From Blattabacterium cuenoti STAT (GTDB lineage: Bacteria > Bacteroidota > Bacteroidia > Flavobacteriales > Blattabacteriaceae): 64,000 nt of DNA. The stretch covers positions 186,001-250,000 of the forward strand of contig NZ_AP014608.1 in the NCBI RefSeq assembly GCF_003573915.1, read 5' to 3'. The translations under genes and the position numbers were made by a program. Under the pieces are notes generated by a model. The model was not told the DNA's origin and searched no databases. It saw nothing but the letters and a program-made list of their open reading frames with translations. Positions 25,249 to 39,048 of this stretch are shown here, piece by piece (position 1 is the stretch's first letter; the number at the start of each line of letters is the position of its first letter).

Positions 25249-25289
25249 AACGGAAAAGAAAGATATCTTTCTTTTCCGTTGTTTTTTTT
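25249..25289 (+). terminator. Strong Rho-independent terminator after the lipoprotein gene
   Basis: A perfect 32-base palindrome (25249-25280), able to form a hairpin with up to 16 bp per arm, is followed by G and eight T (25282-25289). The lipoprotein stop is 30 bp upstream, and a smaller inverted repeat over the stop codon (25216-25230) followed by seven T precedes it. The orientation fits termination on the plus strand, insulating pdhB downstream. Confidence 0.8.
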
Positions 25290-37248: not shown

Positions 37249-38106
37249 TTATAGTATAATTTTTTCTATCGGGAGAACTAATATATCCCGAGCTCCAAGT
37301 GCTTTTAGATTTTCTATAATCCCCCAAAAATCATTTTCGTTTACGACAGAATGTACAGAACTACATTCTGAATTTGCTAGAGGGAGAATAACTGGGCTTT
37401 TAATTCCTGGAAGATAAGATATTATTTTTTCTAATTTTTCATTAGAAACATTTAATAAAATATATTTATTATTTTTAGCTTTTTTTACAGCTCTAATTCG
37501 AAATAATAATTTTTCCATTATAATGTTTTGTGTTGAGTCTAAATGAAGATGTGAAGCTAATACAGCTTCAGATTGAAGAACAGTCTCTACTTCTTTTAAT
37601 CCGTTCATAAAAAGTGTAGATCCACTACTTACTAAATCACAAATACAATCTGCTAGACCAATTCCAGGAGCAATTTCCACTGCACCAGAAATTTCGTGAA
37701 TTTCTGTATCTATACATTTTTTTTTGAAAAATTCTTCAACTAAAAAAGGATAACTTGTAGCGATTCTTTTTCCATTTAAATCTTTAATATTATTGTAAGA
37801 TAAAGACTTAGGAACAGCTATAGAAAGTCTGCATTTTCCAAATCCCAAAGTTTCTTTTATTTTTATTCTTTTTCTCTTTTCTAGAAGAACATTTTTTCCC
37901 ACAATTCCTATATCAGCTACACCATCTTCTAAATATTGAGGGATATCATCATCTCTAAGAAAAAGGACTTCTAGCGGAAAATTAAGAGCCGTTGTTTTTA
38001 ACTTATCTATCCCAATATTAACTTCAATACTGCAATCTTTTAGTAATTTGATAGAATCCTCATAAAGACGGCCTGATTTTTGAATTGCTATTTTAAGTTT
38101 ATCCAT
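37249..38106 (-). CDS. hisG: ATP phosphoribosyltransferase, long form
   Basis: 285 residues. KIAIQKSGRLYEDS at the N terminus, GVADIGIVGKN, and the PRPP-binding region DLVSSGSTLFMNGL are diagnostic. The C-terminal ACT-like domain (about residues 210-285) marks the long form, which is inhibited by histidine and needs no HisZ. It commits flux to histidine and is the first gene of the complete operon hisG-D-C-B-H-A-F-IE. A terminator-like hairpin lies 17-56 bp upstream of its start. Confidence 0.96.
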   Translation of the reverse strand: MDKLKIAIQKSGRLYEDSIKLLKDCSIEVNIGIDKLKTTALNFPLEVLFLRDDDIPQYLEDGVADIGIVGKNVLLEKRKRIKIKETLGFGKCRLSIAVPKSLSYNNIKDLNGKRIATSYPFLVEEFFKKKCIDTEIHEISGAVEIAPGIGLADCICDLVSSGSTLFMNGLKEVETVLQSEAVLASHLHLDSTQNIIMEKLLFRIRAVKKAKNNKYILLNVSNEKLEKIISYLPGIKSPVILPLANSECSSVHSVVNENDFWGIIENLKALGARDILVLPIEKIIL

Positions 38107-38122
38107 AATTCAATAACAGGAA

Positions 38123-38162
38123 AAAATAATAAAAGCTTACTTTTGTAAGCTTTTATTATTTT
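38123..38162 (-). terminator. Terminator-like hairpin in the his operon leader (possible attenuator)
   Basis: On the minus strand an 18-bp perfect stem with a 4-base loop is followed at once by a short T-rich tract (positions 38126-38121 read T). It ends 17 bp before the hisG start, so it would stop transcripts before hisG. Upstream in the leader are a two-codon ORF Met-His (38187-38179) and a five-codon ORF (38173-38156) that runs into the 5' arm. No antiterminator stem was found. On the plus strand no gene ends here, so it is not an ordinary terminator for a neighbour. Confidence 0.55.
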
Positions 38163-38192
38163 AGTAGATTCATGCGTTTTAATGCATCACAA

Positions 38193-38200
38193 CAAATATA
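38193..38200 (-). promoter_or_regulatory. Candidate TAnnTTTG -7 box of the his operon
   Basis: The minus strand reads TATATTTG at 38200-38193, about 87 bp before hisG. A transcript start a few bases downstream would give a leader of about 80 nt holding the hairpin at 38123-38162. No -33 TTG lies at the usual spacing, so the assignment is moderate. Confidence 0.35.
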
Positions 38201-38283
38201 AAAAACTATTTTGAATATTTCTATAATTAATAGTATAATTAACCTTTGGAATTATTTAGTCTATTTTTTAAATAGTAAAAAAA

Positions 38284-39048
38284 ATGAAAATTATTAGTTA
38301 TAATATAAATGGAATTCGATCTGGAATTAGAAAAGGATTATCGAATTGGATAGAAATGAATCGTCCAGATGTTATATGTTTACAAGAAATAAAAGCTTCT
38401 CCAGAACAAATAGAAACGAATCTTTTTGAAAAATTAGGTTATAATCATTATTGGGCCTCTTCAAAAAAAAAAAAAGGATATAGTGGTGTAGGAATTTTAT
38501 GTAAAGAAAAACCTATTCATGTAGAATACGGAATAGGATTGAATTCTATAGATGAAGAAGGAAGGGTATTACGGGTAGATTTAACAAATCTATCAGTAAT
38601 TAGTCTTTATCTTCCTTCAGGAAAGGATATGATAAAAAGACTAAATTTTAAATTTTTTTTTATGAAAAAATTTTTTTTATACACAAAAAAAATAAAAAAC
38701 AAATTAAATAATCTTATTATTTGTGGAGATTATAATATTTGTCATCATGAAATTGATATTCATGATCCTATTCAGAATCAGAAAATTTCAGGTTTTTTAC
38801 CGGAAGAAAGAAAATGGATGACTCATTTTATGAATTTAGGTTTTATAGATAGTTTTAGAAATTTTGTTCAAAAAGCGCATCATTATAGTTGGTGGAGTTA
38901 TCGTTCTAATGCTAGAAAAAAGAATAAAGGTTGGAGAATTGATTATGCTATGGTTAGTAATTCCTTAAAAAAGGAAATGAAAAATGCTTATCTCATGCCG
39001 GAAATCAAGTTTTCTGATCATTGTCCTGTTGTACTAGAAATTTTTTAA
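38284..39048 (+). CDS. xthA: Exodeoxyribonuclease III
   Basis: 254 residues of the Xth/APE1 family. ISYNINGIRSG at the start, LQEIKA with the metal-binding Glu, GDYNICHHEID, and the C-terminal IDYAM and SDHCPV are all present. It cleaves abasic sites and trims 3' ends in base excision repair. It is divergent from hisG and followed by a minus-strand tRNA. Confidence 0.95.
   Translation: MKIISYNINGIRSGIRKGLSNWIEMNRPDVICLQEIKASPEQIETNLFEKLGYNHYWASSKKKKGYSGVGILCKEKPIHVEYGIGLNSIDEEGRVLRVDLTNLSVISLYLPSGKDMIKRLNFKFFFMKKFFLYTKKIKNKLNNLIICGDYNICHHEIDIHDPIQNQKISGFLPEERKWMTHFMNLGFIDSFRNFVQKAHHYSWWSYRSNARKKNKGWRIDYAMVSNSLKKEMKNAYLMPEIKFSDHCPVVLEIF

Follow-up and report, generated by a model that had tools for sequence, protein, structure and literature searches.

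The enterobacterial His leader (Rfam RF00514) is like the element described here in principle, in that a terminator lies ahead of hisG, but the Blattabacterium element differs from it in having no Rfam match, no leader peptide, and no competing helices. The his attenuator seen in Chitinophagaceae and related leaders of free-living Bacteroidota shares with Blattabacterium the gene, the strand, the position, the GCTTAC..GTAAGC core, and the T-tract; however, it also has a His-run peptide and an antiterminator arm, both of which are absent from Blattabacterium. For Flavobacterium psychrophilum, one report (PMC9723704) describes a structured 5′ element before hisG that is conserved in other genera and has no Rfam match, as well as hints of leader-peptide attenuation at amino-acid operons. 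In Serratia symbiotica, according to another report (PMC5013485), the amino-acid attenuators are eroded. The two symbionts are alike in having lost attenuation during genome reduction, but the attenuators of Serratia symbiotica vanish, whereas Blattabacterium keeps the terminator half under selection throughout the genus. Our literature searches found no paper on a his attenuator in Blattabacterium.

Results

Blattabacterium (B. cuenoti) is an endosymbiont of cockroaches. We analyzed a stretch of 64,000 nucleotides (hereafter the window) from a genome of 631,621 bases and compared its hisG leader with those of 48 further Blattabacterium genomes, the HisG proteins of which are 84-95% identical to that of the window. 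The features of the locus are listed in Table 1. hisG is the first of eight ORFs of a his cluster on the minus strand that extends to about 30928. Because xth is divergent, no adjoining gene requires a terminator in the hisG direction, as the first-pass annotation of the sequence had stated; the -7-like box that it had recognized was also recovered. The sites of this box show 0-2 tree changes across the 49 genomes, and those of the upstream element show 0-3 at most sites, with 7 at a C site. The hairpin of the window consists of 18 perfect pairs with a 4-nt loop, followed by TTCC, and its stem ends 16 nt from the hisG ATG (38106). The T-rich tract is partly paired in the genome of the window and unpaired in most relatives.

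Table 1. Features of the hisG leader and its flanks in the window
Feature	Position	Strand	Basis or remark
hisG, ATP phosphoribosyltransferase	37249..38106	-	TIGR00070 + TIGR03455
xth	38284-39048	+	Divergent to hisG
hisG promoter -7 box TATATTTG, Bacteroidota type	38193..38200	-	Transcription start predicted ~5 nt downstream
Upstream promoter element AAATATTCAAAATAG, conserved	38206..38220	-	Tree changes per site
Met-His-stop mini-ORF ATGCATTAA (ATG CAT TAA)	38179..38187	-	Exact in 18/49
Five-codon ORF MNLLK (ATG AAT CTA CTA AAA TAA)	38156..38173	-	Not conserved
Predicted terminator hairpin, 18 pairs here	38123..38162	-	Folding, 49-genome comparison, covariance model
Conserved 10-pair hairpin core AAAAGCTTAC/GTAAGCTTTT	38154-38131	-	
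T-rich tract ATTATTTTTTCC, hisG side	38119..38130	-	

The hairpin region folds at -26.9 kcal/mol compared with a mean of -13.7 kcal/mol for shuffled sequences (z = -4.46), a value equaled by none of 200 shuffles. Only two strong hairpins were found outside crude gene calls in the 64 kb, namely that of the hisG leader and one at 25249-25280. The latter, a stem of 14 pairs with a long run of T, lies between an unnamed ORF and the gene for pyruvate dehydrogenase E1 beta and is, judged by its place, an ordinary terminator. Across the genus, the hairpin precedes hisG in 48 of the 49 genomes, having been lost in G043 (our handle for that genome, as for others below), and this retention is the decisive argument from sequence against chance. 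The first-pass annotation had placed the hairpin between the promoter box and hisG and had named lack of conservation in close relatives as a ground for refutation; the hairpin is there, and it is conserved. A generic hairpin picker was correct in 47 of the 49 leaders, its picks in G008 (which has a core mismatch) and G043 being other hairpins. When we searched whole genomes with the pattern AAGCTTAC-N3..30-GTAAGCTT, one site was found in each of 45 of the 49 genomes and none with a reversed control pattern; as the core pattern is palindromic, both strands report the same site, which is therefore counted twice. As none of these 45 genomes has the core pattern anywhere but at hisG, we rejected a general terminator of the genome as a candidate.

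To relate the hairpin to its free-living counterparts, we used a covariance model (R1) built from 32 of 69 distinct free-living his terminators, the base pairs of which covary; no Blattabacterium sequence was included. On the hisG strand, the model matched the hairpin of the window with 40.8 bits (E = 2.5e-9), compared with 33.7 bits on the opposite strand, and its next-best matches scored 14.3 bits in the window and 18.6 bits (E = 0.10) in the genome. The model further matched 46 of the 49 leaders of the genus (E ≤ 5.2e-4), always scoring the hisG sense above the antisense; the misses were G043 (no match), G008 (E = 0.07), and G038 (no sense-strand match). On the strength of the match in the window, we identify the hairpin, by sequence comparison, as a homologue of the terminator in the his attenuator of Bacteroidota. 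At the gathering score, Rfam gave no match to the element in the window, at locus L004, or at six other hisG loci.

For a wider comparison, we collected 123 hisG leaders of other Bacteroidota, a set that was mostly chosen by HisG similarity (77 + 29 leaders, with 17 fetched otherwise), leans to Chitinophagaceae, and includes near-duplicates and insect endosymbionts of the family of Blattabacterium. A GCTTAC..GTAAGC terminator precedes hisG in 88 of these 123 leaders, by a search pattern that itself already included the core, and 83 of the 88 have a His-run ORF. Overall, a leader ORF with at least three consecutive His codons lies before hisG in 105 of the 123, and 76 of 121 leaders have an upstream antiterminator arm (e.g. 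GGTAGGC) that can pair with the 5′ side of the terminator stem, significant at p ≤ 0.05; the median p of the 121 is 0.02. A His-run ORF, an upstream arm, and a terminator together are, as read from these leaders, the anatomy of a leader-peptide attenuator in other Bacteroidota. Among the 49 Blattabacterium leaders, no short ORF with HHH was found, and two consecutive His codons occur in three. Likewise, none of 48 Blattabacterium leaders had an upstream arm that beat shuffles at p ≤ 0.05 (median p 0.96), in a test that omitted 2 of the 123 leaders as hairpin-less, as well as G043, and that picked the wrong hairpin in some rows, including G008 and G038. The first-pass annotation had likewise seen no antiterminator. 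We also considered the GTAATGC near the transcription start as an arm (GTAA, a bulged T, and GC against GCTTAC) and rejected it, since the duplex never beat shuffles (0/48); that the GTAATGC block is altered in clades that retain the hairpin also counts against it.

The two short ORFs that the first-pass annotation had read as a Met-His ORF and a five-codon ORF entering the hairpin are both present in the window, and a minimal working attenuator could be imagined in which a ribosome on either of them, responding to histidyl-tRNA, determines whether transcription terminates or reads through. In keeping with this, the Met-His ORF directly follows the -7 box and is exact in 18 of the 49 genomes, and the stop codon of MNLLK sits within the 5′ arm of the hairpin. 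However, neither ORF is conserved, and both were rejected as sensors: the G of the Met-His ATG has undergone 12 tree changes, about the neutral rate (mean 9.9 at four-fold sites), and G001, G041, and G047 retain the hairpin without the Met-His ORF. Together with the missing antiterminator, this makes a working minimal attenuator very unlikely, and the translation-coupled attenuation in minimal form that the first-pass annotation had proposed was not upheld; of its his attenuator, the terminator stands as a homologue of the Bacteroidota one, and the sensor parts are absent. The Met-His mini-ORF is, as an ORF, probably nonfunctional. We note that an ATnCATTA block (38180-38187) lies directly after the -7 box and is kept in much of the genus, most of its sites showing 2-7 changes and two showing 9, whereas the ATG is not kept. 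As the G of the ATG varies while the block is kept, ATnCATTA seems to be conserved for a reason other than the ORF, which may be that transcription begins there.

Further, we counted changes on a midpoint-rooted tree made from hisG alone (four coding sequences being shortened, 837 of 855 nt) for the leaders of 48 of the 49 genomes, i.e. without G043, with G008 and G038 placed via their own patterns. For 73 four-fold sites of hisG the mean is 9.9 changes, compared with 0-2 at each of the 20 core stem sites. Changes per site average 4.5 over the ten bases 3′ of the core, on the hisG side and in the T-tract, and 14.8 over the ten bases 5′ of it. By these counts, purifying selection acts on the stem and, towards hisG, on the T-tract; a stem and following T-tract kept in the transcribed direction is what a predicted intrinsic terminator should display. 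That the hairpin is a neutral remnant without function is in agreement with decay in one clade and with a general loss of RNA regulation in endosymbionts (PMC5013485), but against the difference between core and four-fold sites this reading has next to no probability: by these counts, it is refuted genus-wide and is possible for the decayed clade only. The hairpin could instead have been co-opted as a 5′ stabilizer or processing stop of the hisG mRNA, with termination being irrelevant. Its end does lie 9-41 nt upstream of the hisG start in 47 of the 49 genomes, but a role of this kind leaves the conservation of the T-tract against a variable 5′ flank unexplained, and we consider it unlikely.

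Within the core, all 48 hairpins are paired at seven of the ten positions, the exceptions being one genome at position 5, one at position 6, and three at position 10; G008 and G038 have a mismatch in the core and an open hisG. The outer pairs vary by lineage. Hence, the 18-bp stem and T-rich tail of the first-pass annotation hold for the window, but the full 18 pairs are specific to its genome, and only the 10-pair core and the T-tract are conserved. The compensatory changes that it had proposed to look for were found in some outer pairs, which have changed on both sides (G001, G041, and G006); in the core, they are confined to positions 6 and 9, in one genome each. Speaking against a terminator, no more than 3 of the core pairs are G-C, and the median hairpin energy across Blattabacterium is -11.2 kcal/mol; both values are modest for such an element.

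The loop is 4-15 nt long across the genus and flips freely in orientation (AAGA or TCTT, with 7 changes in 17 genomes, the maximum possible). This variation fits a terminator and speaks against both a factor that binds the loop and a DNA operator with spaced arms. The near-perfect symmetry and the divergent gene pair would suit a palindromic operator, bound by a dimeric regulator between the hisG and xth promoters. However, the loops alter the spacing of the arms, which is not fixed; the hairpin lies downstream of the hisG promoter; and it is by our comparison homologous to RNA terminators of free-living relatives. We rejected the operator on loop length and regard it as highly improbable. Inverted loops are also seen between close relatives, at 38141-38144 of the window and the corresponding site of other genomes of the genus (AAGA in G015 and TCTT in G016; TATATT in G001 and AATATA in G047), and they resemble reported plastid micro-inversions between inverted repeats.

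The letters of the core are more constant than pairing requires, leaving room for a further, sequence-specific role or for a factor that reads them. A terminator under some other input, with readthrough switched by a trans-acting Nus factor, interplay with Rho, or an RNA-binding protein, would account for these almost invariant letters, and Rho is encoded in the genome. No candidate factor emerged, however; the sequence, length, and orientation of the loop are free; and one clade, its his genes open, is losing the element. We therefore hold this to be a minor possibility.

The decay affects a single clade, in which the T-tract is degraded in G001, G041, and G047 and the hairpin is gone from G043; all 8 his ORFs of these four genomes are without stops. 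Given this decay and the core mismatches of G008 and G038, with hisG open throughout, the hairpin is not essential. Among genera of the same family, no hairpin of the Blattabacterium type was found in the hisG leaders of G345, G346, G360, and G361. The leader L175 of G347 (1.3 Mb, same family) has, at about 1000-1038, a hairpin that has diverged, AAGTTTGC/GCAAGCTT, with GGTAAGC upstream, and may possibly represent a half-eroded stage. Flavobacteriaceae-like leaders of the same order (we infer the family name) have a like plan with another stem, CCCGTTTGA; in L163-L165 and L167-L170, we observed a His-run peptide with this stem or a close one, and TGAGTA is repeated near the hisG start.

Discussion

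We consider it probable, from the sequence comparisons above, that the hairpin is the terminator of an ancestral Bacteroidota his attenuator, kept under purifying selection after its sensor was lost, and that it now acts as a constitutive partial brake. The sensing parts have apparently been lost and the hairpin kept, which is what makes a fixed brake probable. Of the polymerases that start at the conserved hisG promoter, a constant share would terminate at the T-tract of the hairpin, and the remainder would read through and make the his mRNA; his expression would be set constantly, and the response to histidyl-tRNA would be gone. It is unlikely, albeit conceivable, that the sensorless attenuator is still regulated, with some factor or the state of the polymerase reading the stem and setting his readthrough; this would be regulation without a leader peptide and without an antiterminator, in a genome with few regulators. 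A fixed brake appears to be releasable while the pathway is kept, as the clade with the decayed element and open his ORFs indicates.

Regulatory RNA is expected to disappear from reduced endosymbiont genomes; here, the "stop" half is kept under selection throughout the genus and the listening half has gone. If true, the hisG leader of Blattabacterium would be a natural example of regulation that has become fixed at one setting, and the decaying clade would allow his output to be compared within the genus in the presence and absence of the brake.
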